Below, one piece after another: positions 11,046-48,346 of a DNA stretch of 64,000 bases. The position numbers and the translations under genes are program-made. The DNA comes from Lichenibacterium dinghuense (GTDB lineage: Bacteria; Pseudomonadota; Alphaproteobacteria; Rhizobiales; Beijerinckiaceae): NCBI RefSeq assembly GCF_021730615.1, contig NZ_JAJLMN010000001.1, forward strand, positions 5,175,501 through 5,239,500, read 5' to 3'. Numbering within the stretch: the stretch's first letter is position 1; each line of letters opens with the position of its first letter. Below the pieces are notes generated by a model. It had not been told where the DNA came from. It saw only the letters and a list, made by a program, of their open reading frames with translations, and did no database searches.

Positions 11046-11122
<77 letters not shown>

Positions 11123-11169
11123 GTCTTTTCAACGACTTAGGCCTTCGGGCCTCGCGGGCCGCCGGGGGC

Positions 11170-11189
11170 GGGCTACCACGGGGCTACCG
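11170..11189 (+). repeat. Left arm-type repeat GGGCTACC-ACG-GGGCTACC-G
   Basis: Two direct copies of GGGCTACC with an 11-bp period, 47 bp inside the attL core. The identical 20-bp block recurs at 29173-29192 near attR. Short tandem repeats at both ends are what arm-type binding sites of tyrosine recombinases look like. The role is inferred. Confidence 0.6.
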
Positions 11190-12052: not shown

Positions 12053-12376
12053 GTGCAAGGAGATGCCGTGAGCGCGGCATCCAGGAGCAGACCCATGGAA
12101 GCGCTTTCTACCCCGCACACTTCGCCGCCGGCCCGAGCGAGTTCGGACATGCTCCTCGACCATGTCGAGGCGGCTTCGTCCTTGAGGCTCGCGCCACGGA
12201 CGCTCGCCCGCCATCGCGCGGACGGCACTGGCCCCGTCTTCATCCGGCTCGGCCGCCGCGTGCTCTACCATCCCGACGACCTCATGGAATGGGCGCAGTC
12301 TCACCGGTATCGGAGTACGTCAGAGCCTACGAGCCGGCCCGCGGGCCTGCCGCTCAGGCCTCGCCGTCGGGCGTGA
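12053..12376 (+). CDS. AlpA/excisionase-like helix-turn-helix protein
   Basis: A 107-residue protein with a MerR/HTH_17-type DNA-binding unit: LLDHVEAASSLRLAPRTLAR, then GPVFIRLGRRVLYHPDDLME and a W in EWAQSH. This is the standard layout of AlpA-like regulators and excisionases that control integrase direction in islands. It sits just upstream of the RepA-type ATPase gene. The first 30 residues are low-complexity, so translation may begin at the ATG at 12095 or 12149. Confidence 0.75.
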   Translation: MQGDAVSAASRSRPMEALSTPHTSPPARASSDMLLDHVEAASSLRLAPRTLARHRADGTGPVFIRLGRRVLYHPDDLMEWAQSHRYRSTSEPTSRPAGLPLRPRRRA

Positions 12377-12657
12377 GGACACTCGGCCCGTCACCGACAT
12401 CAACGTCGAGCCGTGTCCGCCGCCTTCGAAGTCGTCGGCACGCCCGGCCTGTATCTGACGAGTGAAGCCAACTACCACATCTACGACGACGCCCACCTTT
12501 GCCGAGGTGGGCGCGTGCGGCCGAAGCCGTTACTGAGACAGTGTTGTGCCTCTCTCATAGCTCTTCGTCCTCGACTCCGCAAGCTAGAAGTCGAAATCGG
12601 CCCCGCCGATGAAGTCCGCACGCGCCCGCTCGCCGCCAAACAAGCGAGCCTATAGAC
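12377..12657 (+). other. Short stretch with a possible 80-residue ORF and a 9-bp hairpin
   Basis: A GTG-started ORF at 12413-12655 (MSAAFEVVGTPGLYLTSEAN...) fills most of the gap before the ATPase gene but resembles nothing I know. A perfect hairpin (CGCCCACCT, 6-nt loop, AGGTGGGCG) at 12490-12513 lies inside it. No T-run follows, so it is not a convincing terminator. The gap may hold a small gene or a leader. Confidence 0.35.
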
Positions 12658-14058
12658 ATGGACAGCAACGATTTTGACCTCGGCCGTGATCTGACCGAGT
12701 TGGAAGGGTCGAGTCTCGACGGGCTCGATGAACGTCCCTTGGAGGCGAGATCAGCGCCCCCCTCGCATCCGACGAGCGCGCGTTCCGACTCCGGAACGGC
12801 TTCGTCGTTCAGGGATCTGATCTGCAAGCCTCGGCCGGAGACGGTCTACCTTGGGAGGCGGGAGGACACGATCACCATGCCTCCGACGCTCGACCTCGAA
12901 CGGTCGTGGCATCGGCCGGAGGGTGACGGGGTCAGTGACTTCCTCATCGAGCATCGCAAGAACTACGAGGCCGATCGGCGCGCCGAGGCCGGCTACGGTT
13001 TTCCAACGTCAAGCGTGAAGGCGTTCATGTACGGAGGGCCTCGTGAACCGGATTGGGTAATTCCCGGCTTGGTTCCCCGCAAGGAAGTTTGCATTTTCGC
13101 TGCTGAGGCGGGTATTGGTAAAACGACCCTCTTGACTCAGATGCTTCTGTCTGTCGCTTCAGGCCAGCCTTTCTTCGGTCTTCCTGTCGGGAGTGGCGTC
13201 GTCGTAGGCTTATTCCACGAAGACTCATCGGCACACCTTCGTGGTCGTCTTGGTACGCTGTTCGAGGAGACGTCGACGGACCTCGACCGTCTCGACGAGA
13301 GCGGAAATCTGTTGTTCGAAACGCGAGATTACGATCCAGGGGCCGAAGACCGGCGCGTGCTTTGGGACAAGGGGCCTACTCCGAATTTCTTTGACCTCGA
13401 ACGCAAGATCGAAGCGGTCGGCGGTGTGAGGCTTTTGGTCATCGACACCATCAAGCGGGTTATTGCTGGTGATGTCGACAAGGGTGAGAACGTCAGACAT
13501 TTTCTTTCCGCGCTCCAGGGGCTTGCCGATCGACAGAACATCGCGATCGTAGCTTCTACGCATGTCAACAATCATGGAAAGACGGCGGGATCCTCGGAGT
13601 TTGTGAATCAAGGTCGCTCGGTCTTCCATCTCATCAGGAGTCCCAAGAACGGCACGCAGGCGACCTTGACCTCGATCAAGTTGAACTGCGGACCGGAACC
13701 GTCCCCTATCCTTCTTGAGAAGACCCTGAGTGGCTTTTGGCGCGTCCGCAGTACCACGGTTGAGCCTACCGCGCGCGCGAACGCGTTGATCGACGCGAGG
13801 GAGCGCGGCGAACGTCTCCGCGCCATCCTCTTCGACGTCATCGACAACCATCCGAAGAAGCTGTCCGTGCACAAGCAGGCGGAGTCTTACGCGCCGCGCT
13901 TCGCAGCCGGCACGTCTGAGGCTGAGGGATTAGGAGCATCGCCGGCCGAGTTCGAGGCGGTGATGGCTGATGCTCTCCTGAAGGGCGAGATTGAGGAGGT
14001 GCGGAAGGACACCCGCCATTCGACCAAGGTGTTGCGCGTCGTCGACAGGGGCGTGTGA
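12658..14058 (+). CDS. AAA family ATPase, RepA/RegA-like (AAA_25)
   Basis: A 466-residue ATPase of the KaiC/RecA-like AAA_25 group found with island and plasmid replication genes. Walker A is FAAEAGIGKTTLLTQMLL (about residue 150), an acidic catalytic segment is GLFHEDSS, Walker B is VRLLVIDTIKRV, and a sensor-like IAIVASTHVN follows. About 110 N-terminal residues are low-complexity and the last 100 look helical and basic. Homologues act as replicative-helicase-like motors of small plasmids and satellites. Immediately after its stop codon comes the inverted-repeat module at 14060. Confidence 0.85.
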   Translation: MDSNDFDLGRDLTELEGSSLDGLDERPLEARSAPPSHPTSARSDSGTASSFRDLICKPRPETVYLGRREDTITMPPTLDLERSWHRPEGDGVSDFLIEHRKNYEADRRAEAGYGFPTSSVKAFMYGGPREPDWVIPGLVPRKEVCIFAAEAGIGKTTLLTQMLLSVASGQPFFGLPVGSGVVVGLFHEDSSAHLRGRLGTLFEETSTDLDRLDESGNLLFETRDYDPGAEDRRVLWDKGPTPNFFDLERKIEAVGGVRLLVIDTIKRVIAGDVDKGENVRHFLSALQGLADRQNIAIVASTHVNNHGKTAGSSEFVNQGRSVFHLIRSPKNGTQATLTSIKLNCGPEPSPILLEKTLSGFWRVRSTTVEPTARANALIDARERGERLRAILFDVIDNHPKKLSVHKQAESYAPRFAAGTSEAEGLGASPAEFEAVMADALLKGEIEEVRKDTRHSTKVLRVVDRGV

Positions 14059-14059
14059 C

Positions 14060-14220
14060 GCACGAGGTCCAGCACAAGGCCCCCGCATTCAGACGAACCT
14101 CGTGCTGGACCTCGGCAAGGCATAAATACCTGTTTCGACTCAGCTTTCGCGGCGAGGTACACTGCCTGTGCTCGACCGCGAAGAAGAGTATTTCATCAAA
14201 AGACAAACGAGATCCGTAAC
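14060..14220 (+). promoter_or_regulatory. Compound repeat module, copy 1 (inverted 12-mers plus conserved block)
   Basis: Direct copies GCACGAGGTCC and AGCACAAGG (14060-14079) face inverted copies GAACCTCGTGCT and GGACCTCG (14095-14114), giving a 13-bp perfect inverted repeat CGAGGTCCAGCAC with 26-nt spacing. About 55 nt later a 50-nt block at 14171-14220 contains GCGAAGAAGAG, ATTTCAT and GAGATCCGTAAC. The same order recurs at 24370-24528. It could be an operator/promoter, a replication origin or a structured RNA leader. The HNH gene starts 36 bp downstream. Confidence 0.6.
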
Positions 14221-14255
14221 TCTAAGCCCCCTCGCGCGAGCCCGTCGATCCACCC

Positions 14256-15107
14256 ATGCCGAACACCCACTTTAGCACCGCGGCCGTCATCGCCGAGTTC
14301 CGTGCCCACGGCGCGGAGCCGACGTTCACAAGCTACACCGGCCCGAGCCAACGCCTGACCTTCCTGTGCTCGTGCCCCGACCGGCGGCCGGGAGAGACCA
14401 CCTTCCGCGCGCTCCACCACCAGGGCGTGGCCCCGCGGTGCCCCGAGTGCAGGACGCTGGCTCGCCAGGGCCGGATGTTGGGGAACCGCCGTACGCCGTC
14501 GACTCCCGCGGCGCCGAAGGCGGCACCGCCGACCGACCGGGACGGGGTCATCGCCGAGAAGTATCGGACGCTCCTTGCCCAGCACGGCGTCACGCCGCTG
14601 TCCGAGTACGGGGGCGCCAGGACGCCGATCATCTTCATGTGCCCCGGCCGCGAGTGCGGTGGCGCACGCCACTCGATCATGCCGGCCGCCCTCCGAAACG
14701 GGCAGCTCCCGCGGTGCCCTTCGTGCCAGAAGGCGGCTCGGCCGCGCGGGGCGGCCCATCACCGCTGGAACGACGAGCGGTCACCCGAAGAGCGGGAGAA
14801 CGACCGTTCCAAAGCGTGGGAGGTCGCTGTCCTTCGTGTCCACGACATGAGGTGCGTCATCACGGGACGCATCGGACGGGCGCCCCATCACCTGTACGGG
14901 CACGCTGCCTACCCGGAGTTCCGCCTCTTGCTCCAGAACGGCGTCTGCCTCACCCGCACGCTCCACGACGAGTTCACTGCGCGGCACCGCGACGGCCGGA
15001 ACACCTACGACGATTTTGCAACCTTCTATGCGGAAAAGACTGGCCGGGTCTGCCCGATCCTCGACCCCATGCTGCTCCGGATATCCGAGCGCGTTTTCGT
15101 CGAGTGA
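14256..15107 (+). CDS. Zinc-ribbon HNH-endonuclease-like protein
   Basis: A 283-residue protein with two zinc-ribbon-like units. The first has FLCSCPDRRPG and PRCPECRTLA (residues 35-70); the second has IFMCPGRECGG and PRCPSCQKAA (about 125-160). The C-terminal part resembles an HNH fold: MRCVITGRIGRAPHHLYG, then LLLQNGVCLTRTLHDEFTAR, with His pair, Asn and a final His in the expected order. Similar proteins occur as phage and island HNH nucleases. It directly follows the repeat module. Nuclease activity is inferred. Confidence 0.65.
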   Translation: MPNTHFSTAAVIAEFRAHGAEPTFTSYTGPSQRLTFLCSCPDRRPGETTFRALHHQGVAPRCPECRTLARQGRMLGNRRTPSTPAAPKAAPPTDRDGVIAEKYRTLLAQHGVTPLSEYGGARTPIIFMCPGRECGGARHSIMPAALRNGQLPRCPSCQKAARPRGAAHHRWNDERSPEERENDRSKAWEVAVLRVHDMRCVITGRIGRAPHHLYGHAAYPEFRLLLQNGVCLTRTLHDEFTARHRDGRNTYDDFATFYAEKTGRVCPILDPMLLRISERVFVE

Positions 15108-15118
15108 GGAAAAAGTTC

Positions 15119-15274
15119 ATGGTCCAAGTCGGCGAGGGCCGCCGCCGCTTCGCGTGCTTTCACGAAGCCCGCCATGCCGTTGTACGATGGTAGCTGGGGC
15201 ACGATGCCGACAACGCGGTGGTGATCTCGCGAGCGGCGGCATTGTGGAAGCCCTTCGATTTTATACCTCACTTA
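15119..15274 (+). pseudogene. Fragment resembling an M41/FtsH-like metallopeptidase N-terminus
   Basis: The ATG at 15119 follows GAGGAAAAA and reads RRRFACFHEARHAVVRW, stops at TAG (15191-15193), then continues in frame as LGHDADNAVVISRAAALW to the IS5 insertion at 15275. The run FHEARHAVV...LGHDADNAVVI matches the zinc-binding HExxH segment and following strand of M41-type peptidases. With an internal stop and an IS at its end it is best read as a remnant. The assignment rests on this short motif only. Confidence 0.4.
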
Positions 15275-16188
15275 GTGTCCGTCCGATAAGGGCACGTGGG
15301 GTTGAGTGGCCGGGGCTGAGATGATTCCAGGAGGGTGCTGAAACCTGATCTGGAACCGCCATGTGGACCCCGGCCACCCGCGAGCAGCATAGCCGCTCCG
15401 AACTCCGCTACTCAACCGATCTGACCGACGCCGAATGGGCCGTCATCGAACCGCTGTTGCCGCCCGGCAACCCGCTCGGACGGTCCCGGCTGTGGTCGTT
15501 GCGGGAGATTGTGAACGGCATTTTCTATGTGCTGCGGGGCGGCGTTCCCTGGCGCCTGTTGCCGAAGGACCTGCCCCCGAAGAGCACGGTGTACGGCTAC
15601 TTCAGCGCGTGGCGCGATGAGGGCCTGTTCGCCGGCATCAACCACCATCTCGTCATGCTGGATCGCGAGCGGGCCGGGCGAGAGGCTTCGCCCACCGCGG
15701 CCGTGCTCGACAGCCAGAGCGTGAAGACCACGGAGAGCGGCGGTCCGCGGGGCTACGACGCGGGCAAGAAGGTGAAGGGTCGCAAGCGCCGGCCCTGGTC
15801 GACACGGACGGCCGCGCCCTGGTGCTCGACCCGCAGCCGGCCGACGTGCAGGACCGCGACGGGGCCGTGCCGGTGCTCAAGCAGTCACGCCGTTCATATC
15901 CTTTCATCGCCAAGGCCTTCGCCGACGCGGGCTACGCCGGCGACAAGCCGGACAGCGCCACGCTCATCGCCGTCGAGATCCTCCGCAAACCACCCGGGCA
16001 GGTCGGCTTCGTGGTTCACCCCCGGCGATGGGTGGTTGAGCGCTTCTTCGCCTGGATCAGCCGCAATCGACGCCTCTGGAAGGATCCGGAGGCCACAATC
16101 GCATCCGCAAAGGCCTTCCTCTACGCTGCGTCCGTCATGATGCTGCTACGTCGCATAGGTTGCGCAGCCTGACTTCCCGGACGGACTC
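15275..16188 (+). mobile_element. IS5-family insertion sequence, copy A (914 bp)
   Basis: Ends are imperfect inverted repeats: GTGTCCGTCCGATAAG at the left and GAGTCCGTCCGGGAAG (reverse complement) at the right. TTA is duplicated at 15272-15274 and 16189-16191. The element splits a short minus-strand reading frame: joining the flanks gives an open frame ending L-S-E-V-stop. Confidence 0.88.
15361..16172 (+). pseudogene. IS5-family transposase, single frameshift
   Basis: The first part (15361-about 15790) reads the DUF4096-type start DLTDAEWAVIEPLLPP, VNGIFYVLRGGVPWRLLP and the first catalytic Asp in AAVLDSQSVKTTESGGPRGYDAGKKVKGRK. After one lost base near 15793 the frame continues as ALVDTDGRALVLDPQPADV, AFADAGYAGDKP (second Asp) and PRRWVVERFFAWISRNRRL (catalytic Glu region). 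One extra C in GCGCCGG would restore it. It could be programmed frameshifting, but the position is not the usual one. Confidence 0.85.
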
Positions 16189-16191
16189 TTA

Positions 16192-16442
16192 GATGAGCCT
16201 CAAACCCGTGGCGAATGCCGAGACTCTTGACGTAGGGAACGAAATCGCCTTGTGGCATGAAGTCGAGATTATAATTGCCGATCTCGCAAGAGAATAGTTG
16301 CCTAGCGAACTCGCTAAAATCCTCACCATCTTGAAATGATAGTGGTTTAGGATAGTTGATAACGTACTCGTTGGCCGAGTAAAATCTGACACCGATTCTC
16401 GAATATACAAATATATACGATGACAAACCGGCAATTCTAACC
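16192..16442 (-). pseudogene. Remnant of an unknown AT-rich gene between IS5 and IS21
   Basis: The minus strand is open from the IS21 edge: GLSSYIFVYSRIGVRFYSAN, then INYPKPLSFQDGEDFSEFARQ and DFMPQGDFVPYVKSLGIRHG. Skipping the IS5 and one TTA duplicate, it ends L-S-E-V-stop at 15262. There is no good start codon before the IS21 boundary, so the N-terminus is probably gone. The region is clearly AT-richer than its surroundings. Family unknown. Confidence 0.45.
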
Positions 16443-16560
16443 TGTGATTAGGCGTGGAATTTTGACCCCCATGTGAGGGGGATCGGCGTCCAACTTTGAC
16501 CCCCTCGAGTGCAATTCGAGCAAGCTGCACGTCCTTGTTGCGGGACGGGCGGTGGGGGGG

Positions 16561-18057
16561 ATGAAAGGCGTGGACACGATTGCGCGCATCAGGCGCGAGT
16601 TCTTCATTCGAGGCCGGTCCATCAAGGAGATCGTCCGGGATCTGCACGTGTCCCGGAACACCGTGCGCAAGGTGGTGCGCACCGGCCGCACCGCGTTCGA
16701 GTACGAGCGTGAGGTCCAGCCGATGCCCAAGCTCGGGCAGTGGCGGGCTGATCTGGACGAGATGCTGGCCGCCAACGACAGCAAGGCGGCCCGCGAGCGG
16801 CTCACCATGATCCGCGTGTTCGAGGATCTGCGCGGCCGCGGCTATGCGGGCGGCTACGACGCTGTCCGGCGCTACGCCCGGGGCTGGCGGCGCGAGCGGG
16901 TCGCGGTGACGGCCGCCGCCCACGTGCCGCTGAGCTTTGATCCGGGCGAGGCCTACCAGTTCGACTGGAGCCACGAGATCGTGCTGATCAACGGCACCAC
17001 CGTCACCATCAAGGTGGCCCACGTCCGGCTCTGCCACAGCCGCATGCTGTTTGCGCGGGCCTATCCGCGCGAAAGCCAGGAGATGGTGTTCGACGCCCAC
17101 GACAAGGCCTTCGCCTTCTTCGAGGCGCCTGCCGCCGCGGCATCTACGACAACATGAAGACGGCAGTCGAAACGATCCTCGTCGGCAAGGAACGACAATA
17201 TAACCGCCGTTTTCAGCAGATGTGCGCTCACTATCTCGTCGATCCCGTCGCCTGCACGCCGGCGTCGGGATGGGAGAAGGGCCAAGTCGAGAACCGTGTC
17301 GGCTGGTGCGCGAGCGCTTCTTCACGCCCCGCCTGCGCGTGAAGAGCATCGAGGAGCTGAACAGGTGGCTCCTCGATCAGTGCGTCGCTTACGCCAAGGG
17401 CCATCCCCATCCCGAGAACAAGGAGATCACGGTCTGGCAGGCGTTCGAGGCGGAGCGGCCGAGCCTCGTGCCCTATGTCGGCGCCTTCGACGGTTTCCAC
17501 GCCGTGCCGGTCTCGGTGTCCAAGACGTGCCTGATCCGCTTCGACAACAACCGTTACTCGGTGATGGCGAGCGCCGTCGGCCGCCCCGTCGAAGTGCGGG
17601 CCTATGCGGAGCGGATCGAGTTGCGCCAGGGCGGCCATGTCGTGGGCGAGCATGTTCGCAGGTTCGGCCGCAACGAGACCGTATTCGAGCCCTGGCATTA
17701 TGTGCCGGTGCTGGCCCGCAAGCCCGGCGCCCTGCGTAACGGGGCGCCGTTCAAGGATTGGTGCTGCCGCCCGCCTTCGAGCGCGTCCGGCGCAAGCTCG
17801 CCGGCGCCGACGATGGCGATCGCCAGATGGTGGGCCTGCTGACGGCCGCCATGGACGACGGGCTGGAGGCCGTCGAGGCTGCCTGCCTGGAGGCGCTCGA
17901 AGCCGGCGTCCACTCGGCCGACATCATCCTCAACATCCTGGCCCGACGCCGCGAACCCGCGCGCGTCATCACCATCGATACCCCTGACGCGCTGCGCCTG
18001 CAGCACGAGCCCGTCGCCGACTGCGCGCGCTATGACACTCTGAGGAGCATCATGTGA
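16561..18057 (+). pseudogene. istA: IstA transposase of IS21, three single-base frameshifts
   Basis: The frame starts MKGVDTIARIRREFFIRGRS with a helix-turn-helix (SIKEIVRDLHVSRNTVRKVV) and reaches the first catalytic Asp region YQFDWSHEIV. It then breaks near 17128 (TTCTTCGAGG, one G short), near 17302 (GTCGGCTGGTG, one T short) and near 17758 (GATTGGTGCTG, one G short). Pieces continue as GIYDNMKTAVETILVGKERQ, RERFFTPRLRVKSIEELNRW and LPPAFERVRRKLAGADDGDR. Each shift moves the frame the same way, as single-base losses would. IstB is intact. Confidence 0.88.
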
Positions 18058-18791
18058 TGGAACGTTCCGAAATCCTGGCCACGATGGTGGACCTGAAGCT
18101 TTACGGCATGAAGGCCGGCTACGACGAGATCATCACCACGGCGTTGAAGCGCCAGCACGAGCCGCAACGCATCGTCGGTGATCTGCTGCAGGCCGAGATC
18201 GCCGAGAAACAGGCGCGCTCGATCAAGTATCAGATCACCATCTCCAAGCTGCCTTTAGCCAAGGACATCGAGGATTTCCGGTTCGAAGGCACGCTCATCA
18301 ACGAGATGCTGGTGCGCGATCTCGCCGGCGGCGAGTTCCTTGCTCACCAGCGCAACGCTGTCCTGGTGGGCGGCACCGGGACCGGCAAGACTCACCTCGC
18401 CATCGGGATCGCCCGAGCCTGCATCCGCAACGGCGCCCGTGGCCGCTATTTCAACGTCGTCGACCTCGTGAACCGGCTCGAAGCCGAAGGCCGCGCCGGC
18501 CGCCACGGCCGCATGGCCGACTACCTGTCGCGCATGGACTTCATCGTGCTCGACGAACTCGGCTATCTGCCCTTTGCCCAGTCTGGCGGGCAACTCCTCT
18601 TCCATCTCATCAGCCGCCTCTACGAGCAGACCTCCGTCATCGTGACGACCAACCTGGCCTTCGGTGAATGGCCGAACGTGTTCGGCGATGCCAAGATGAC
18701 GACCGCACTGCTGGACCGGCTCACCCACCATTGCGAGATCGTCGAGACCGGCAACGAGAGTTGGCGCTTCAAAAACCGCGCCTCGGCCTGA
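18054..18791 (+). CDS. istB: IS21 helper ATPase IstB
   Basis: A 245-residue AAA+ protein with Walker [21 protein letters not shown], Walker [13 protein letters not shown] and sensor [17 protein letters not shown]. It has the family N-terminus ([20 protein letters not shown]). Its start overlaps the istA stop (ATGTGATGG), implying coupling. IstB oligomers select target DNA for IstA. Confidence 0.95.
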
Positions 18792-18924
18792 GCATCACGC
18801 CACCGCAGCCGCCCGGCTGCGCAACCCTGACCCGCTTCGCCGGGCGGCCGCTACCGCCTCAGATTGCAGCAAGGGGGTCAACATTGGACGCCGATAGGGG
18901 GTCAAATTTCAACGCCGATTGACA

Positions 18925-19158
18925 CCGTGGGCCGTCGAGGGCTCGGGGACGTTCGAAAAGGCCCTCGTGTCTGCCGTTTCGCTCGGGGGTGATGCCGATA
19001 GCGTGGGGGCCGTGGCCGGGGCGCTTGCGGGAGCCAAGTGGGGCGCGTCGGCCATCCCGAAAAGATGGCTCGAACCCCTCGCGTGGCGGAACAGGATCGC
19101 GGCTACAGCGATGAGCCTCGTGAGGGTGTCCAGCGAGGTCCATCTCGGCGAGTCGTGA
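18925..19158 (+). pseudogene. C-terminal remnant of an ADP-ribosylglycohydrolase (DraG-like)
   Basis: The frame enters from the IS21 right edge and reads PWAVEGSGTFEKALVSAVSL, then GGDADSVGAVAGALAGAKWG, SAIPKRWLEPL and a stop at 19158. The GGDADS-(V/T)-GAIAG-type motif with Mg-binding Asp residues is the hallmark of the last third of DraG/ADP-ribosylhydrolase proteins. No matching N-terminal part exists on the other side of IS21, so most of the gene is gone. Confidence 0.75.
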
Positions 19159-19468
19159 CCTTTCGCTGAGTTCCACCAAACCGCTCAGTAGATCGAGTGC
19201 CCAGACAGGAATCATCTTCATCGATGTGCGCAGCCCCGGGCACCAGGGAGTGGGCCGGAGCTGCGCGCCCTCAGCGATCTGAGCGCGTCGGGCTTCGCAT
19301 ATGGAAATGCTTATTCTTCATCGGTCTTCACCCAATCGGGTGAAGACCGCCCCAAGCGGTCCTTCTTAGCTTGTCCCCGCGACCAACGTCGCCGATCGGT
19401 GGGGGCCGGTCGTATGGATCACCACCGACCCGAGGACCCCGCGGGACGACGGGACGACGGGACGAACA
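19159..19468. other. 310-bp intergenic stretch upstream of the propeller gene, with a 12-bp hairpin
   Basis: It holds a perfect hairpin at 19322-19349: CGGTCTTCACCC, loop AATC, GGGTGAAGACCG. No T-run follows, so it may be a factor-assisted terminator or an operator; the propeller gene begins 120 bp later. No other gene is supported here. Confidence 0.55.
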
Positions 19469-21808
19469 ATGACCATCATCTCTCACGACACCGCGGGCCA
19501 AGCGGCGCGGTTGGCCTCAGACCCATCCATCTCGGCCGATGGCAAGTTGGCCGCCTTCGAAGCATACGACAGCAACGGGGTACGACAGGCCTACGTGACG
19601 TCGACCGCGGACGGGTCAGTTCCGTTTCTCGCGTCGCGTTCGACAGGAGGCGACGCCGCTAATGCTGCGGTCAACGGCGTGACACTGTCATCCGACGGTC
19701 GTTACGTCGTATTTGACACCCGCTCCACCGGTTTCACGACGGACCCGGTCAATGGGCACAACGAGGTATATCTACGCGACACACAGACCGGGACGACGCA
19801 ACTGGTCTCCAAGGTGACGGGCACCGCGATGGACGGGAACCAGTACGGCGCCGCGATCGCCTCAGCCGGAAGCGGCGCGCCCATCGTCGCGTTCACAAGC
19901 GAATCCACGAGCGTGACCGGATCCCCGGTCGCGCAGGCCGTCCAGAGGGACATGGCGACAGGCGCCACCACCGTCATCTCCGTCGGATCGCAAGGGGCGG
20001 CAAATGCCGCCGCATACCTCGACTCGATCTCCGACGCCGCCCACGACAGGGCAGCCTTCGAGTCCAGGGCTACCAATCTCGGATTTGCTTCCGGCGGAAA
20101 TGACGAGGTCTACATCAAGGATGTGGCATCTGGCGGGACTTCATTGACCCTCGCCTCGTCGATGGCCGACGGACGTACCGCGCTCGCAGGCGACAACGGT
20201 CAAGCCTCGATCTCAACTGACGGGGGCACCGTGGCGTTCGTCAACAGCCGCAATGGGCAGTCAGAAATCTACGTGAAACGGAACGGGAGCGGCGACCCGA
20301 TCCTGGTCTCCCTCGCCCCCGACGGCACAGCGGCGACCGGGATTAATTCGAACCCTATCATCTCGGCCGATGGCAAGTACGTCGAATTTACTAGCACGGC
20401 GACCAATCTTAACGGCGGCACCGGCGGCACTCAGGTCTACGTGGCCGACTTGACTGGCGCGGCTCCGAAGGTCACCCTGCTCTCGCGGGACGCGTCTGGA
20501 GCTCCCGGCCAGGGAGGCACGAGCACCTCTGGATCCACGACGGCCTTCGGTAACGGGACTCGCACGGCGGGACAAGCATTCACCTCCGACGATGCCACAC
20601 AAATCTATACCAGCGCGGCGGGATCGCTGACCGGAGGAATATCAGGGCTCCCGGAAGTAATCGCGGCCTCGGGTGCGGCTTCCGCGGCAGCCGACACAAC
20701 TCCGCCGGTCGTCGGGGCTGTCACAGTCACCGCCACGCCGGTCCCATCGGGCGCTTCCGGATTGACGGGCAGCAAGTCCATCACCTTATCAGTCAATGCG
20801 ACCGACAACATCGGCGTCGCGGGGGTCGAGTTTTATTCGGGTACTTCCAAGACACCAATCGCGCCCGGCATAATACAGGGAGACGGAAGTTACCAAGCGA
20901 CCGTGCAACTCCCCGATGGGATCTATGGACCGTTTCACGCTGAGGCGACGGACGCGGCGGGAAACCCTGGAGTGGGCACCACGGGCAATTCTACGCTGAC
21001 AGTCGACACCACCCCGACAGCGCCGACCTTCGATCCGAAAGTGACGCTGACCGGACCGAGGACGGTGACGTTCACCGGAACCGCGAGTGATCTAAATGGC
21101 CCTTCGTCGGTGAGCTTGTCGGAGAATGGCAGTTCCATCGGCACCCCGGTGACGACGGATGCCTCCGGAAAGTGGACTGGCACTGCGACGCTCAAGGCCG
21201 GACACCATGGGGATATTGTGGCGACCGCGACCGACGCAGCGGGGAACCTTTCAGGACAAACATCGAGCCTTATCGACCTTCGCCTACCCGGCAAGAAGGG
21301 CAGCGCTTCGGCCGACTATTACGCCGATGGTGGCAACACATATCTCGGCACGACTGACTTCAACCGGAACGGTTCGGTCAAGGACCAGTCAACGTTCAAG
21401 CAGCTCGACGACGGTGGTTTTGAGGTCGACCACGTGGCCGGCAGCGCGGTGGGAGCGAAGGGACTGAAGTCCTACTCAGACATCTATGACTCGGACGGCA
21501 ACCAGACCGAGATCCAGCGCGTGGCGTCCGGCGGCGAGAGGACTCTGACCGGAATCGGCGGGGGCGATACTTTCGTCTTTCAGCGGGGGCTGGCGCAGGA
21601 TGTGGTGACAAACTTTCTCGCGAAGGGTGACGCCCATGACACCTTGTCGTTCTCGCGATCAGAATTCTCGTCCTTCGCCGATGTGCTCGCAAGCGCGTCC
21701 CAAGTGGGAATGGACACCGTGATCACGGGTAATCACGGCGACAAGCTCACTCTGACTAACGTGGCCGTGGGTGACCTCTCCCGTTCGGACTTTAAGTTCC
21801 ACGCCTGA
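19469..21808 (+). CDS. Large secreted beta-propeller protein with Ig-like and RTX-type C-terminal domains
   Basis: A 779-residue protein without an N-terminal signal. Residues 1-400 hold repeated PD40/TolB-like blades (PSISADGKLAAFEAYDSNG; TLSSDGRYVVFDTRSTG; PIISADGKYVEFTSTATN). Residues 420-610 have two or three Ig-like units (DTTPPVVGAVTV; SITLSVNATDNIGVAGVEFY; DTTPTAPTFDPKVTLTGP). The last 80 residues read GGGDTFVFQRGLAQDVVTNF, then SFADVLASASQVGMDTVITG and a hydrophobic end (SDFKFHA), as in type I secreted RTX-type proteins. Export by a type I system encoded elsewhere and a role in adhesion are inferences. Confidence 0.75.
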   Translation: MTIISHDTAGQAARLASDPSISADGKLAAFEAYDSNGVRQAYVTSTADGSVPFLASRSTGGDAANAAVNGVTLSSDGRYVVFDTRSTGFTTDPVNGHNEVYLRDTQTGTTQLVSKVTGTAMDGNQYGAAIASAGSGAPIVAFTSESTSVTGSPVAQAVQRDMATGATTVISVGSQGAANAAAYLDSISDAAHDRAAFESRATNLGFASGGNDEVYIKDVASGGTSLTLASSMADGRTALAGDNGQASISTDGGTVAFVNSRNGQSEIYVKRNGSGDPILVSLAPDGTAATGINSNPIISADGKYVEFTSTATNLNGGTGGTQVYVADLTGAAPKVTLLSRDASGAPGQGGTSTSGSTTAFGNGTRTAGQAFTSDDATQIYTSAAGSLTGGISGLPEVIAASGAASAAADTTPPVVGAVTVTATPVPSGASGLTGSKSITLSVNATDNIGVAGVEFYSGTSKTPIAPGIIQGDGSYQATVQLPDGIYGPFHAEATDAAGNPGVGTTGNSTLTVDTTPTAPTFDPKVTLTGPRTVTFTGTASDLNGPSSVSLSENGSSIGTPVTTDASGKWTGTATLKAGHHGDIVATATDAAGNLSGQTSSLIDLRLPGKKGSASADYYADGGNTYLGTTDFNRNGSVKDQSTFKQLDDGGFEVDHVAGSAVGAKGLKSYSDIYDSDGNQTEIQRVASGGERTLTGIGGGDTFVFQRGLAQDVVTNFLAKGDAHDTLSFSRSEFSSFADVLASASQVGMDTVITGNHGDKLTLTNVAVGDLSRSDFKFHA

Positions 21809-22895
21809 TAGGCGAACCCACCGCCAACGACGCCAGCAGGGTCGTGAGGCCCTGTTGGGACGAGACCCCGGTCTTTCCTAGCACCGCCCGAAGTTGAGAG
21901 CGGACGGTCTCGCGGGAAAGGTCCAGAGCCTCCGCGACGGCGGGCACGCCACCGAGGGTCACGGTCGACCTCGCGACACGCGCCTCCGCAGGTGTCAGGC
22001 CGAACAACGAGACAAGCAGGCGCCCATCCGGGAATGAGAGCGGGGATGCGCGCGTGATCAGCACCAAGCATGCCGCGCCGACGAAAACCTCGCGCCCTTC
22101 CCCCGTCACCGGAAGAAGGTGCGCCACGGACGGGGTGCCACCGTGAGGAGCGGCGATGGGTATGGAACATCCCGCCGCGACTCCAGACCCTGCGCGCATC
22201 TCTTCGAGCGCCCGCACTAAGGCGGCGTCGCCGTCCCGATCGACGAACGTCAGGCGCCCACGAACCTCCCTCACCGTTCCGGGGGTGAGTGCTGCCAGGA
22301 GTTCGTTGCCGACGATCACGCGACCACGGGCCGAGAGGGAGCCGGCGGGGATGCCGAGCGCGGCGAGCGACTCCACCGCACCTCGGGAACGATCCAGGCC
22401 GAGCCTTGCGGAAATCAGAGCGGCCCGGGCGAGGTGTGGTCGCAGCGCCTCTGCGGTGGCGAGCGAGCGGGCATCTTGAGCGGGCGATCCGAACCGACGC
22501 TGGACTGAAACAACCATGAGGTCTCCGGTCGGCATGTCGAACAATGTCGCGAATTCAGCCCCGATGCCCCGTGGCAAATAAAAGCCTTCCAATGCGGGAT
22601 CAGTCAGTAATTCTTCGGGAGTGTAGATATCCTCGCCGGTGATGAACGCCTTTGGATTAAGCTTCACGGCACGTGGAATTTTGTCGCTGCGAGCTTCCCA
22701 CCCCTCGTGGAGGTAATCGCGCACGTAGTGATCATCACCGGTTGAAGTGGCCCACCGTACACCATCTGGCCCTCTTGCGATGAGAACCGCGCAAGGGCCA
22801 TCGAAGCGTCGAGCCAAGAGCGACAATGCTCGGGGCCAGAGGTCGGGCGCCAAAGCGGCTTCGTAGAAAAGGTCCGCCAAGTCCTGACTCTCCAT
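21792..22895 (-). CDS. LuxR-family transcriptional regulator
   Basis: A 367-residue regulator. The last 65 residues form a LuxR/GerE helix-turn-helix: LFGLTPAEARVARSTVTLGG, then VPAVAEALDLSRETVRSQLR and AVLGKTGVSSQQGLTTLLAS. The N-terminal 200 residues (MESQDLADLFYEAALAPDLW...) resemble the uncharacterised sensory part of rhizobial LuxR proteins of this size. It converges with the propeller gene, with 17 bp of overlap at the stop codons, and is the obvious local regulator candidate; this is inferred from position only. Confidence 0.85.
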   Translation of the reverse strand: MESQDLADLFYEAALAPDLWPRALSLLARRFDGPCAVLIARGPDGVRWATSTGDDHYVRDYLHEGWEARSDKIPRAVKLNPKAFITGEDIYTPEELLTDPALEGFYLPRGIGAEFATLFDMPTGDLMVVSVQRRFGSPAQDARSLATAEALRPHLARAALISARLGLDRSRGAVESLAALGIPAGSLSARGRVIVGNELLAALTPGTVREVRGRLTFVDRDGDAALVRALEEMRAGSGVAAGCSIPIAAPHGGTPSVAHLLPVTGEGREVFVGAACLVLITRASPLSFPDGRLLVSLFGLTPAEARVARSTVTLGGVPAVAEALDLSRETVRSQLRAVLGKTGVSSQQGLTTLLASLAVGSPIRRGT

Positions 22896-23031
22896 TCAAG
22901 CCTCCGCACGTCCGACCCCGATGGCAGGACACTTTGACGCACGAAGCGATGGTCTCGTCAACTTAGAGATAAGCTCATCGTGTAGTCTCCCGCTAAATTC
23001 AACATGTGCATGTTCGGCGTCGATTCTTAAC

Positions 23032-23952
23032 ATGAAGCCGGCGCCAGCCAGCCCAAACGTCCCGACGGCACGGACCGGCGAGACCACGGACCAGCTCGCC
23101 CACAGGATCCAGAACCTCAACCCCTCAATGAGGTCCGTCGAGTATGTCGGCCTCGCCTGGCAGGCGGCCGGGATCAAGGAGGGCTTCCGCGATTGGCGGG
23201 CGGGCGGGAAGGTCAGCGACGGCTCGATGCCGATCGGCACGCCCATCGCCACCTTCATGGACCGGCACGGCAACCAGAGCGACAGGTACGACGGCGGCTA
23301 GGGCGTCGGGGTCCACGCGCGGGACGTCATCGCCGCGAGCCATGGAAAGCTCGGGGCGGGGACCACGCACGCAGCCGCGCTCGCTGAATACGAGCGCGAC
23401 CGGGACGGCAAGGTCACCGGCATCAAGGTCCAGCAGCAGTGGATGGGCCGCCCATCAGGCCACGATCAAGGTCGGCGACCGGCGGGGCGGCGAGGCGGAC
23501 GCGGACAACTATCGCTCGGTGAACGGCAGGGACGGCCAGCCGCTCGGCGACATGAACCCGTTGAACCCGAACGCCAAGAACTACGCCGGGGCGCAGCCCG
23601 TCGCGGGTGGGACGCTGGGCGGCCTCCCGCCGGCCGTCGACTCGCCCAAGGCCGCCGCGACCAACAACCCCCAGGGCGGTCCCGCAGCCCCCGCCAACGC
23701 CGGAGCTGCGGCGGCTTCATCGTCCCAGGTGCCCACCGGCTCGAACCCGGCGGACAGGGTCAGCACCGGTTGGGACCCGGGCATGCGGTCCGCGTACGAC
23801 GCCCCGGCCACGCCCAGGTGCCCGGCGCCAAGGCCGACCCGAGCATGCGGTCCGCGTACGACGCCGCGCCCGCCGATCCCGGGATGCGGTCTGCATATAA
23901 TGCCCCGCCGCCCGCTTCATCGGTCGAGCAGCCTGCCGACGTCCCCGCCTAG
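23032..23952 (+). pseudogene. Decayed gene with NlpC/amidase-like N-terminus and C-terminal 12-residue repeats
   Basis: The frame reads TTDQLAHRIQNLNPSMRSVE, YVGLAWQAAGIKEGFRDWRA, GTPIATFMDRHGNQSDRYDG, then a TAG (23299-23301), then HARDVIAASHGKLG and KVTGIKVQQQWM. A frame change near 23450 leads to HQATIKVGDRRGGEADADNY and a long Ala/Pro linker; a second change near 23818 restores the first frame. Three repeats of DP(G/S)MRSAY(D/N)A follow. The layout resembles BPSL0067-type amidase folds, where a Cys precedes VGL; here it is Tyr (YVGLAW). With a stop and two shifts it is not functional as read. Confidence 0.5.
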
Positions 23953-24173
23953 ACGGCCAAGACCTCGGCGTCCATGAACGCGGCCTCGGCCCCTTCTCCA
24001 TCCGGCGGCGACTCGTCAGGCGGCTCTTCATCGTCCGGGGGTGGCGACTCGTCCGGCGAGTCCTCGTCCAGTTGCGGGGGCTTCTGTCGCTGTACCGGTG
24101 GCGGGTCCGGTGATGCTGGCGGTCGGATGGACGGCTTCGGCGAGAGCCCCATGATGCCGCTCCTCGCTATCAT
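23949..24173 (-). CDS. Possible small Pro/Asp/Glu-rich protein
   Basis: The minus strand encodes MIARSGIMGLSPKPSIRPPA then an acidic proline-rich tail (DSPDESPPPDDEEPPDESPP). The plus strand is also open (Ser/Gly-rich), so compositional bias alone may create both. No family recognised and no clear ribosome-binding site. Low confidence. Confidence 0.25.
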   Translation of the reverse strand: MIARSGIMGLSPKPSIRPPASPDPPPVQRQKPPQLDEDSPDESPPPDDEEPPDESPPDGEGAEAAFMDAEVLAV

Positions 24174-24369
24174 GAACACCACGTTGTTCAACAGGAATCG
24201 ACCGTGGGCAACCCGACGGGGACCTTCGCCGGCCGCATGGGGCGGTGACACCACGCCCATGTCGTCGGCCGATAGCGGGCTAGATGTTCACCTCCTCTGG
24301 CCACCGTTCGACAGAGTCTCAAGGCTGTCCGCGCCGAGCCAACCCGCTCTGCTCCGGTCACCGACATGC

Positions 24370-24528
24370 AGCACGAGGTCCAGCACGAGGTTCAGTTGTT
24401 CGAGGAGCCCCGTGCAGAACCTCGTGCTTTGCAACTGCATGCGTTTGAACAGGAATCCGGCATGCGTCAGGGTGAGGGGATCGACGCGAAGAAGAGGATT
24501 TCATGAAGACAGTTTGAGATCCGTAACC
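24370..24528 (+). promoter_or_regulatory. Compound repeat module, copy 2
   Basis: Two direct 12-mers AGCACGAGGTCC and AGCACGAGGTTC (24370-24393) and an inverted GAACCTCGTGCT (24417-24428) are followed after 50 nt by a block at 24479-24528 with GCGAAGAAGAGG, ATTTCATGAAGAC and GAGATCCGTAAC. Order, spacing and both sub-motifs match 14060-14220, 10.3 kb away. The next frame downstream is the broken gene at 24667. Confidence 0.6.
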
Positions 24529-24666: not shown

Positions 24667-24887
24667 GTGCCGAGCATCCAGTCCGCCGAGACCATCCGGG
24701 CCAACGCGGACCTTCTCCGCCGCCTCGCAGCCGCCATCGCCCTCGCCGGTGAGCCTCTCGCGGAGGTGTGCGAGCGGATCGCGTTGGACATCCGGGCCGA
24801 GGCGGCCTCTCACTGGGGGATCGGCCGGCGGCGATCGACGGCATGGTGCGGCGCGACGCCGCGCCAGAAATCGCGTTCGAGGGCTGA
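24667..24887 (+). pseudogene. Small helical protein gene with one apparent frameshift
   Basis: From GTG at 24667 the frame reads SIQSAETIRANADLLRRLAA, AIALAGEPLAEVCERIALDI, RAEAASHW. At the G-run 24815-24819 a one-base shift gives RPAAIDGMVRRDAAPEIAFE and a stop at 24887, much more protein-like than the unshifted tail. One more G would restore a 73-residue gene. Family unknown. It is the first gene after repeat module copy 2. Confidence 0.4.
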
Positions 24888-25618
24888 GTCTGGGCTGTCG
24901 AAGGGCTCCGACGCCATGCCGAACCCGCTCTTCCTACCGCTTTTGCGGTGAAAATCGGCCCCGAAACTCTGGGAGCGCCGGGGTGATCTGCTCATCCCTT
25001 TCTCAGATTTCAGTGGGGAAGGGGCGGCGAGCAGCGTCGCCCCACCCCGAGATGGGGAGCCGGAGAAGGGGAGAGCCGGAGACCGGCCCCCGAGAGGGAG
25101 CCGCCCCGCCGCCGGACCCGCCGGGAGCGGAGCCGGGAGCCGCCCGCTGCCGCCGGCCCTGCCCGGGGACCGCCCGGGATCCCCCTGCCCCTCCCTTCCC
25201 ACCCCATTTGGCTATGCCTTCCGCTGCTGCCCTCCCCGAGCCGCCGCCCTCGCGGTGGACCGGAGGAGCCCCGGCACCGGATCCGGCCCGTCCCTCGATC
25301 CAGACTATCTGACCACCCTCACCGCGACCGGCGCCGCCCCGAGCCCGGCTTCGTGCAGGCATCCCGGATGGGGTTGGACAGCCCCGGCGACCACGGCCCG
25401 ACTCTCAAATGGTTTTCCGGCTGGAGATCTTCATATCCCGCAGGGGGTTACGCCGGGGCTTCCTCCACATCTGCACGTCTTTCCCTCCATTTGCGGCCCT
25501 TGAGCGCCTATCTGTCGCCGCTTCATGCGACGGCCGCACCGCCCGGGACAGGGTCGGACGCAACGCAACCGGGGCGGAGCTGAGGAGTTGGAAGACATCC
25601 CAGGGTGTGGAGGTTCTC
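24888..25618. other. Very GC-rich stretch with no supported gene
   Basis: About 730 bp. The middle (about 25040-25330) is a purine/pyrimidine-biased block of GGGAGCCGG, CCGCCG and CCCTCCC-like runs. Open frames exist on both strands but consist of Gly, Ala, Pro and Arg only. I see no gene, RNA or clear promoter before the small protein at 25619. Confidence 0.5.
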
Positions 25619-27833: not shown

Positions 27834-29159
27834 TTACTCCGCTCCGGATCTTTTCATCTGAGCGACGATCGATCGTGCCACGTTTTCGGCCGCCGCCTTC
27901 GCCGGGTCGTGGGCGACGTGGGCGTATCGTTGGGTCGTCTTGGGGTCTTTGTGGCCGAGGAGGAAACCGATCATGAGCAGGCTGCTGCCGGTCGACGCCC
28001 CCACGCTCGCGAACGAGTGCCGGAGGTCGTGGATCCGCGTCTTGGTTAGGCCGGCGCGGGCGTATAGCTTCGCCCACGCCTTCGGCAGGCCCTTGTAGGA
28101 GCCGTCGCCGCGTGTAGCGGGGAAGACGAAAGGCGAGCCGTTCAGCCTCGGCACCGCGCGGAGGAGGTCCACGGCCGGCTCGCCGAGTGGGATGTCCTTG
28201 GCTCCGGTCTTGCTGTCCGGGAGGTGGAGGTAACCTCGGTCGAGGTCGACGTGCGCCCACTCCAGGCCGAGGATCTCCGACCTGCGGGCGCCGGTGAAGA
28301 GGAGGAGCTTGATCGCCGCCAGAGCGGTCGGGCTCGCCGCATCTGGCGGGCGCGGTGACGCCCCTTTCCGTCCGGCGGCGATCCAGTCGGCGTGCATCGC
28401 CTCGAACTGGTCCCAATCCGCGTGGCTCGCCTCGAACGCTCCCCCGAGCCGCTCCAACTCCTGCCCGGACAGGAAGCGGGTGTTCTTGCCATCCTTGAAA
28501 CGCTGGACGCCCTTGACGGGGTTGTCCGACCGGAGCCCCTCCTTCATGGCGAAGGTCAAAATCCCGCCCAGGAGCCCGACGGTCCGTGTCGCGGTGCCCT
28601 TACCCCCCTCCACGATGGCGCGGCCGTGCTTGCCCGTCTTTTCGTCGACCGCGGTCTTGCCCGCCGCGACCGCGTGGAGGAAGTCCTCGACGTCCTTCCC
28701 GGTGAGCTTGCGGACGAGCTTCTTGCCGAGCAGCGGCTTGATGTGCCGGCGGATGCGCCCCTCGTCGGTGGCGAGCGTGCTGGCCTTCTTGGGCACGTCG
28801 AACTTGGTCAGCGTACGACCCGCCCGCGCCGCGGCGAGGTACTGATCGCAGAGGTCGGACACGGTGACCCCCGCCGCCTTCCGCTCGCGTGCGGCGTCCG
28901 CCGGGTCGATCCCGCTCCGGACTAGGCCGAGGACGTCCAGCGCTTCCTTCCGTGCCGTCTCGGGGGTCCACGGCGAGCCGTGCTTGCCGATCGTGTGCCA
29001 CTTCTGGCGCCCCTCGAAGGCGTACTTGAGGATGTAGGTCTTCGACCCGTCAACGTTCACGCGCAGGCCGAAGCCCTTCGTCGCGGTGTCCCACACGATG
29101 TACCGGGCCGGCTTGGCCTCGGCGGTCTTGACCGATTGCAGGGTCAGCTTGACGGCCAT
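27834..29159 (-). CDS. int: Tyrosine recombinase (island integrase)
   Basis: A 441-residue P4-type integrase. It starts with the DUF4102 arm-binding domain (KLTLQSVKTAEAKPARYIVW, GFGLRVNVDGSKTYILKYAF), then a core-binding SAM-like domain, then the catalytic domain: Arg in LLFTGARRSEILGLEWAHVD, Lys in PDSKTGAKDIPL, H-x-x-R in RIHDLRHSFASVG, His in GHKDPKTTQRYAHV with the nucleophile Tyr. Complete and intact. It lies 137 bp from attR and reads inward, the usual arrangement for tRNA-targeting islands. Confidence 0.95.
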   Translation of the reverse strand: MAVKLTLQSVKTAEAKPARYIVWDTATKGFGLRVNVDGSKTYILKYAFEGRQKWHTIGKHGSPWTPETARKEALDVLGLVRSGIDPADAARERKAAGVTVSDLCDQYLAAARAGRTLTKFDVPKKASTLATDEGRIRRHIKPLLGKKLVRKLTGKDVEDFLHAVAAGKTAVDEKTGKHGRAIVEGGKGTATRTVGLLGGILTFAMKEGLRSDNPVKGVQRFKDGKNTRFLSGQELERLGGAFEASHADWDQFEAMHADWIAAGRKGASPRPPDAASPTALAAIKLLLFTGARRSEILGLEWAHVDLDRGYLHLPDSKTGAKDIPLGEPAVDLLRAVPRLNGSPFVFPATRGDGSYKGLPKAWAKLYARAGLTKTRIHDLRHSFASVGASTGSSLLMIGFLLGHKDPKTTQRYAHVAHDPAKAAAENVARSIVAQMKRSGAE

Positions 29160-29172
29160 GTCCCATCTCCTC

Positions 29173-29192
29173 GGGCTACCACGGGGCTACCG
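29173..29192 (+). repeat. Right arm-type repeat, identical to 11170-11189
   Basis: Same 20-bp tandem block, in the same orientation, between the integrase start (29159) and the attR core. It also overlaps the likely integrase promoter, so it could let the recombinase control its own expression. Confidence 0.6.
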
Positions 29193-29296: not shown

Positions 29297-29345
29297 TGCC
29301 CTCCGAAGGCAGAGGTCTCAGGTTCGAATCCTGACGGGTGCGCCA
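29297..29345 (+). repeat. attR core: 49-bp direct repeat
   Basis: Exact copy of the tRNA 3' half. There is no acceptor 5' strand or D-arm, so it is not a functional tRNA. It lies 137 bp from the integrase start and 91 bp before the start of a second integrase gene. Confidence 0.95.
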
Positions 29346-29913: not shown

Positions 29914-31135
<1,222 letters not shown>

Positions 31136-47611: not shown

Positions 47612-48346
47612 TCAGCCCCCGCGGGTGGCGAGCTCTTGCACCCGTGCGGCGATGTCGGCCGCCTTGGGCCGGCCCCGCCGCTCCTTCCCCAGCGCGTCGC
47701 GCCGATCGCCGTCCGCGGCGCGGGCCAGCACCGCGGCGAGCTGGTCGGCCAATGGCGTCGATGGGTCCCAGGTCTCGAGCACGGCGCCGGTCTGGGCGAG
47801 GTTGTCGAGGCCCGGTGCGAAGACCGGGGTCGACTGCGCCTTCTCCTTCAGCACCTCGACCGACAGCTTCGTGACCCGGCTCATCGACGGCAGGTCCATG
47901 ACCTCCGGCTCGGCGCCCGGCAGCGCGACGAGGACGCGCGTGGCCAGCGCGGTCGCGATGAAGGCGCCCGCCGCCGTGTGGCCGTAGAGCACACCGACCG
48001 TCGGCCGGCCTTCGAGGTCGGCGACGATCAGGCACTTGGCGAGGTGCGCCAGAAACTCGTTCAAACCGAGCAGCTCGTCGCGCCGGCTCATGCGCTGGCT
48101 GTCGCTGTCGACCAGCACCACGACCGGGCCTCCTCCGCCGCGCTCCAGCGCGTCGAGCACGTGAGCAGCCAGCGTCAGGGCGCCGTCGACGCCGAGCGGC
48201 GTGCGCCCCTCGACGCCGACCACGACCGCCGTGCCGCCGTCCTTCAGCGTCGCCGTGCCGGTCAGCAGGCCGCCCGCGCGGGCGACGGCGTGGCCGTTGG
48301 GGAACAGCGAGGGCAGAATCTCGTCGAGCGTCATGCTATCGGGCAT
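47612..48346 (-). CDS. mdcE: Biotin-independent malonate decarboxylase, gamma subunit
   Basis: A 244-residue protein with the MdcE pattern: RAGGLLTGTATLKDGGTAVV, VVVLVDSDSQRMSRRDELLG, LNEFLAHLAKCLIVADLEGR, GHTAAGAFIATALATRVLVA, LPSMSRVTKLSVEVLKEKAQ. With MdcD it decarboxylates malonyl bound to the acyl carrier subunit. It is the last gene of the operon and overlaps mdcD by 11 bp. Confidence 0.93.
   Translation of the reverse strand: MPDSMTLDEILPSLFPNGHAVARAGGLLTGTATLKDGGTAVVVGVEGRTPLGVDGALTLAAHVLDALERGGGGPVVVLVDSDSQRMSRRDELLGLNEFLAHLAKCLIVADLEGRPTVGVLYGHTAAGAFIATALATRVLVALPGAEPEVMDLPSMSRVTKLSVEVLKEKAQSTPVFAPGLDNLAQTGAVLETWDPSTPLADQLAAVLARAADGDRRDALGKERRGRPKAADIAARVQELATRGG

Follow-up and report, generated by a model that had tools for sequence, protein, structure and literature searches.

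We analysed a window of 64 kilobases (kb) from the Lichenibacterium dinghuense genome (64,000 nucleotides, nt; coordinates without a prefix refer to it), in which the initial annotation had noted the same composite of short repeats at 14060-14220 and at 24370-24528. Both composites were found in those places and the observation of a pair is confirmed; the unit proved larger and more widely spread than was first noted. Each composite (W1 and W2) is one unit of about 158 nt, in which a hairpin is followed by a spacer and then by a 42-43-nt block with AGATCCGTAAC at its end. The unit occurs seven times in total, three times in the genome of the window (W1, W2 and W3) and four times in Lichenibacterium minor (Lm1-Lm4). 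The unit, its seven copies, the constraint on its parts and the gene neighbourhoods are what the sequences show. We suggest that both composites represent a single cis-acting module of a tyrosine-integrase island family in Lichenibacterium-type bacteria and, tentatively, that this module is a control element of cargo genes. We infer that a DNA-binding protein, perhaps island-encoded, would read the 12-base-pair (bp) boxes of the hairpin arms (two direct, two inverted), and that the bound boxes and the fixed block together would control transcription of the cargo gene behind them; the site would then act as an operator or leader at the 5' end of cargo units. The parts of the two window copies are:

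14060-14221, forward strand: module W1 (hairpin, spacer and block); covariance-model match of 132 bits over 14062-14221
14062-14116, forward strand: W1 hairpin with boxes at 14061-14070 (+), 14095-14104 (-) and 14107-14116 (-); folding z -6.4
14178-14220, forward strand: W1 conserved block, GCGAAGAAGAGTATTTCAT..GAGATCCGTAAC
24370-24528, forward strand: module W2; covariance-model match of 129.9 bits over 24373-24528
24370-24428, forward strand: W2 hairpin with boxes at 24372-24381 (+), 24384-24393 (+) and 24417-24426 (-); folding z -5.0
24486-24527, forward strand: W2 conserved block

The hairpin arms carry tandem 12-bp boxes of the CCCGAGGTYC type, and the spacer keeps its length while its sequence is poorly kept. 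The 12-mers reported earlier in direct and inverted orientation hold overall, except that in W1 they are exact only in the inverted orientation; the first direct copy of W1 starts with CGCACG. The block had been put at roughly 50 nt; it exists, with a true size of 42-43 nt. Repeats and block do form a composite, and in the larger view they belong to a single unit, which varies little in length and whose arms are able to form a hairpin.

The pair is not a product of chance. The motif GCACGAGGTYC has exactly five sites in the window, all five inside the two composites. At up to three mismatches GCGAAGAAGAGNATTTCAT gave two window matches, both exact, where 0.01 were expected; GAGATCCGTAAC at up to one mismatch also gave two exact matches against 0.19 expected, a count that 2 of 100 shuffles reached. 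Local alignment of W1 with W2 scored 44, and 500 dinucleotide shuffles gave 32 at most. Since the best of 988 random window pairs reached 42, the margin of the W1-W2 pair alone over real window pairs is small. The earlier argument from conserved spacing and two different sub-motifs is nevertheless upheld, because the window counts, the alignment and five additional copies together rule out two independent chance motifs. An old duplication of the ATPase or HNH unit at W2 was also considered and rejected, as tblastn near W2 found no remnant of either.

The initial annotation had named a lack of recurrence in related islands as a refutation of its proposal; this refutation failed, since there are five further copies. 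They are located as follows:

own genome C1:3120472-3120629, reverse strand: W3, the third own copy
L. minor contig C119, 2238-2279, forward strand: Lm1 block
L. minor contig C119, 11497-11654, forward strand: Lm2
L. minor contig C119, 47458-47616, forward strand: Lm3
L. minor contig C119, 55966-56122, forward strand: Lm4

A short pattern run over six genomes of the genus gave six hits, all of them modules, and a second scan added one. In L. minor RmlP026 the AlpA-like, ATPase and HNH genes are ordered as in the window, with the block between ATPase and HNH; Lm2 was revealed by a position-weight scan of the same stretch, behind an ADP-ribosylglycohydrolase gene. The covariance model, built from six copies with Lm1 left out, gave six full matches of 156-160 nt. 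Lm1 reached 38 bits, with a match that extends back into the ATPase gene. Model matches on the minus strand at module positions reflect the palindromic arms. No further copies were found by the model in the six genus genomes (E<=1, at most 150 candidates scored per genome). At E<=0.01, with 7 candidates per genome and stricter filters, it was run on 377 family genomes, the six of the genus included, and 375 of these gave no match. A narrower pattern over 387 family genomes found W1, W2 and Lm1 only. One exact pattern had no match in a genome contig collection and missed even L. minor, which is present there; it fits only the two window copies, so this zero says little. A 19-base half-pattern with two mismatches matched 101 of 397 family genomes, an excess over its reversed control that perhaps comes from codon usage. 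Module DNA compared with plasmids (W1, Lm2, Lm3) and phages (Lm3) met only unrelated records at 11-15% query coverage. Pattern matches in the IMG/VR loci L070 and L071 were taken as chance, since by eye no upstream hairpin was seen; L071 had an 18.9-bit covariance-model match over 42 nt. A literature text search with three module stretches returned one unrelated sea-cucumber paper, and the excerpts of PMC12595487 on AlpA islands describe no comparable module.

Constraint within the module is uneven. In the alignment of six copies, arms and block each have a mean pairwise identity of 0.71, compared with 0.34 for the loop and 0.39 for the spacer; for the last 11 nt of the block the value rises to 0.97. 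The invariant columns over all seven blocks are G.G.AGA.........CAT......A......AGA.CCGTAAC. The tandem boxes keep their 12-bp spacing in all six aligned hairpins. Each of the modules contains 3-4 boxes at 8 or more matches out of 10, compared with at least three in 94 of 1979 random 190-nt windows, a count biased in the modules' favour because the box consensus was derived from the modules themselves. The earlier proposal that the two copies are functional sites of the same type thus gains support, at the level of sequence, from five more copies in which the same parts are constrained.

The hairpin raises the possibility of a structured leader RNA of cargo mRNAs, in which the arms would pair and the block would be a single-stranded signal. 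Folding of both window copies, which the initial annotation had called for, gave hairpins better than their own shuffles, and altogether five hairpins did so with z -3.3 to -6.4; none of 200 shuffles was as good in four of them, and 1 of 200 for W3. A five-sequence alignment had a double change in 6 of 19 pairs. With six sequences, 84.2% of cells were paired against 79.7% in shuffles (4 of 500 as high) and the covariation score was 0.216 against 0.140 (5 of 500 as high), while slid controls paired 21-42%. The double-change pairs, at 4 of 17, were not unusual (74 of 500 shuffles). Since the structure was taken from the same sequences and the shuffle control ignores relatedness, we regard arm covariation as present but modest. 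Symmetric protein sites that change together would give an equal signal. Moreover, a box (CCGAGGT) stands four nt upstream of the block in all four L. minor modules (and in none of the three own modules), and a box that also lies outside the hairpin fits a DNA-binding site better than a leader RNA. Lm1 lacks the long hairpin, and Rfam gave no family match at the modules, only two sub-threshold matches elsewhere in the loci. We therefore consider a leader RNA unlikely. Two pairings inside the block were dropped: one from RNAalifold (columns 122-126 with 157-161) had no compensatory changes and five broken cells, and a W2 block hairpin seen by eye is not kept by the other copies.

We then compared likeness within and between islands. 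Among the 15 pairs of arms, W1-W2 and Lm3-Lm4 rank highest at 0.83 each, followed by W1-Lm3, a between-species pair, at 0.78. Lm3-Lm4 are also most alike in the loop (0.62), and W1-W2 are the most alike of 21 pairs in the block (0.81); the top pair in the spacer is not a same-island pair. The six-sequence alignment gave the same within-island picture. An island-specific 'dialect' of arms and block was weakened on recount, as the arms follow it in two pairs only and the block does not. A reader specific to each island is thus possible, not more. Accordingly, the idea of one island regulator for both window copies is weakly supported: the arms are most alike in both comparable same-island pairs, and the block is not.

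The genes beside the modules in the window are:

12658-14058, forward strand: AAA_25/RepA-like ATPase, modelled to end in a winged helix at the C-terminus; W1 begins 1-3 nt past its stop codon
14256-15107, forward strand: HNH-type protein with a Cys-rich N-terminal part; no Pfam hit, phrog_144 HNH at E 2.6e-5
24667-24951, forward strand: small helical open reading frame (ORF), GTG start, 94 amino acids, 140 nt past W2; doubtful as a gene

W1 does lie between the RepA-type ATPase gene and the HNH gene, as first described, with the HNH start codon 36 nt past the last base of the block. The 'small helical gene' after W2 is present as an ORF and doubtful as a gene. Five of the seven modules have a co-oriented gene downstream: HNH twice, a sorbosone-dehydrogenase-like gene twice and a patatin gene once. 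Between W1 and Lm1 the downstream HNH proteins are 60% identical and the upstream ATPases only 30%, which we count in favour of control of the downstream gene. Relatives of the HNH protein were found at one locus in the genome contigs, in L. minor, and none in IMG/VR. For a constrained site on the 5' side of cargo genes our preferred, tentative explanation is a control element that a DNA-binding protein would read. This reading is supported by the seven copies, the restriction of the island integrase (E<=1e-60) to the same two genus genomes, the constraint on arms and block, the 12-bp boxes, the within-island likeness of the arms and the co-oriented genes downstream.

Several observations weigh against control of cargo genes. 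An insertion sequence (IS)-type gene stands between module and cargo gene in three of the five cases (W3, Lm3 and Lm4). Behind W3 there is a transposase gene (DDE_3, L054:14245-15381), which we take to be of the IS630 type; it begins about 92 nt past the block, belongs to a 1137-bp repeat, and the far edge of this repeat touches the start codon of the sorbosone-dehydrogenase-like gene. Behind Lm3 stands a transposase-like frame, typed as IS256 by eye only, with inverted repeats near 47737 and 49016. Beyond it, from 49159, lies the dehydrogenase homolog, which is split over two frames and hence probably not intact. After Lm4 comes an IstA-like frame (by eye only, from about 56196) and then a patatin-like gene 1.7 kb on. 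Between Lm2 and the next gene, a convergent NUDIX, there is no gene-like ORF in the orientation of the module, and W2 has only the doubtful one. The distance from block to start codon varies from 36 nt at W1 and 43-46 nt at Lm1 to about 92 and about 260 nt when the IS is left out of the count, and to 1.7 kb at Lm4. A scan of W1 and W2 for sigma-70-like promoters or terminators found none, other promoter types lying outside the scan. In the block, Lm1 and Lm2 from the same island are the lowest of the 21 pairs (0.57) and Lm3-Lm4 are ordinary (0.71). A candidate reader protein shared by all four islands did not emerge. Finally, with six or seven sequences every figure is a small-sample one.

Three different transposase-type genes, two of them typed by eye only, lie just 3' of W3, Lm3 and Lm4, possibly from target preference or from selection for silencing. 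Such a gene near the right edge in three of seven copies would also suit a small mobile repeat, MITE-like (miniature inverted-repeat transposable element) or REP-like (repetitive extragenic palindrome), or a recombination site that spread within islands and has no control function. The module is a discrete unit with a sharp right edge, and its 1.5-kb flanks are unrelated in all pairs except W1/Lm1. However, there are only 3-4 copies per genome, and a neutral repeat would hardly preserve its final 11 nt when the spacer sequence has been randomised. REP, CGTC and GTAG repeats are likewise palindromic, extragenic and proteobacterial; they are 20-40 bp long, tagged GTAG or CGTC and high-copy in the excerpts of PMC3733652. 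With about 158 nt the module falls outside the REP/BIME (bacterial interspersed mosaic element) definition. A mobile repeat without function is, in our view, improbable. An integron-like attC site was set aside by eye, on comparison with the features of attC sites.

The main rival to cargo control is a replication site of the excised island, where the winged helix of the ATPase would bind the boxes and open the AT-richer block, with two sites per island. It is suggested by the adjacent RepA-like ATPase, its modelled winged helix and the analogy with P4 and pRN1. W1 and Lm1 both lie directly behind an ATPase gene. The ATPase has profile matches to RadA (1.5e-9), RSF1010 RepA (1g8y, E 2.9e-4) and phage primase-helicases. 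Its last ~100 residues were modelled as helices and a two-strand wing with a mean pLDDT (predicted local distance difference test) of 79; the full-length model was too poor for use (pLDDT 41.6). Direct and inverted 12-bp boxes accompany an AT-richer core in W1, W2 and Lm2 (lowest 40-nt GC 0.35, 0.42 and 0.40), and three of the four islands would have two modules. Against this, the core of Lm1 is not AT-rich (0.53-0.57), and with the C-terminal model as query Foldseek retrieved nothing from the PDB at E<=0.001, the best matches being MarR-type winged helices at E 0.07. The genes on either side of the modules are unrelated. Moreover, a tblastn search for the ATPase (E<=1e-3) was negative both for 39 kb around W3 and for the 40-68 kb stretch of L. 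minor, which carry one and two modules, respectively. Searches for ATPase relatives in plasmids and phages (tblastn) and in IMG/VR were negative as well; among 397 family genomes (E<=1e-20) it was found in the own genome and L. minor only, and among 397 order genomes (E<=1e-30) in the own genome only. The stretch before the ATPase gene (window 12490-12634, L046:771-915) is conserved between islands, at 71% over 147 nt, and may encode a small protein.

Satellite P4 has two sites per element (ori and crr) with repeats in both orientations, an integrase and an AlpA-like gene. The window island would resemble it in these points and in a helicase-type protein with a winged helix, here a modelled one; here, however, the boxes lie in hairpin arms beside a fixed 42-nt block, the ATPase itself gave no match to a primase domain, and no ATPase was detected in two module islands. 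In P4 the origin repeats are bound by the winged helix of the helicase-type alpha protein (excerpts of PMC4234260). The same excerpts compare P4 alpha with the crenarchaeal plasmid pRN1, whose stem-loop lies behind a rep gene for a protein with a C-terminal winged helix, an arrangement like that at W1 (where the winged helix is modelled). pRN1 differs in having one stem-loop of ~100 nt and no iterons, whereas the module has a separate fixed block and usually two sites. The PLE satellite also uses semi-palindromic repeats, at an iteron origin with an island-encoded RepA_N initiator, and the excerpts of PMC7145576 describe no fixed block of the module's kind; its initiator family and repeat layout differ from those of the window island. 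The module shares the logic of known operator or iteron arrays, and no Rfam family fits it. A replication site is a weaker candidate than cargo control, though one to be taken seriously. We think it unlikely that both are combined in one initiator-like island protein, which would read the box array and the 11-nt core at a fixed distance, start replication of the excised island and switch on the cargo. In that case nuclease, phospholipase and other defence-type genes would stand behind each site of a new class of paired island signal. What probability remains we leave for other putative cis functions, e.g. transfer or packaging sites.

If control of cargo is correct, the module would be a ready marker to find and delimit a little-known island family, and expression of cargo, including defence-type genes, would be tied to one kind of cis-site. 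Because the paired modules lie beside a RepA-like ATPase, they would also allow one to test in Alphaproteobacteria whether replication sites of the satellite type and the control of cargo are connected.

We read the seven copies as belonging to four islands of two species, with mapped ends for the window island only. This island lies between two identical 49-nt tRNA-Arg(CCG) cores, and IS genes and gene fragments are among its genes:

11074-11122, forward strand: left attachment (att) core, the 3' part of tRNA-Arg(CCG) at 11046-11122
12053-12376, forward strand: AlpA-like helix-turn-helix protein (HTH_17; phrog_66 excisionase/regulator)
15134-15244, forward strand: remnant of a gene whose L. 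minor counterpart is longer (L046:3302-3985, with a weak M41-like match that does not reach the Pfam cut-off)
18949-19146, forward strand: C-terminal ADP-ribosylglycohydrolase fragment with full-length matches in three related islands
27834-29159, reverse strand: tyrosine integrase (Arm-DNA-bind_3 and Phage_integrase)
29297-29345, forward strand: right att core, identical 49 nt

The window island and each L. minor stretch hold two modules, and the stretch around W3 holds one. The L. minor contig starts with low GC (0-18 kb), reaches about 0.7 at 18-40 kb and then mostly drops again up to its end; therefore we read it as two islands. W3 lies ~14 kb from an integrase ~76% identical to that of the window, in a stretch with an ADP-ribosylglycohydrolase homolog and the sorbosone-dehydrogenase-like gene. 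At E<=1e-60 the integrase was found, among the six genus genomes, in the two module-bearing ones only: three matches in the own genome (100, 77 and 47% identity) and one in L. minor (76%, contig C114), where the 16 kb examined had no module. Integrase and module thus co-occur by genome, not at every integrase.

The ADP-ribosylglycohydrolase is present in all four stretches (L046:9088-11454; L054:17735-18679; L073 7238-8176; and as the fragment at window 18949-19146). It is preceded in L. minor by a 437-residue protein without Pfam match, which has piecewise matches in two other stretches. Defence-type cargo lies at 57-65 kb of L. minor C119 (L056:17820-19469, L073:764-3883, L073:4094-6409): a patatin-like phospholipase, a 1039-residue protein with a caspase domain and a DEAD-box helicase, and a PLD/DrmC-like protein with double-stranded RNA-binding motifs. 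Near W3, the own genome has an Abi_C/AbiJ-like protein and an ArdC-type anti-restriction protein (L054:5377-6171, L055:1949-3154). A 21-nt repeat of the GGGCTACCACGGGGCTACCG type occurs near the island ends (window 11169-11189 and 29172-29192) and just upstream of the start of the second own integrase (L072:14967-14987); these are probably integrase arm sites or an int operator. The ALIL pseudoknot, a frameshift signal of IS3-type transposases, was found just beyond the right att site (RF01497, window 30195-30311).

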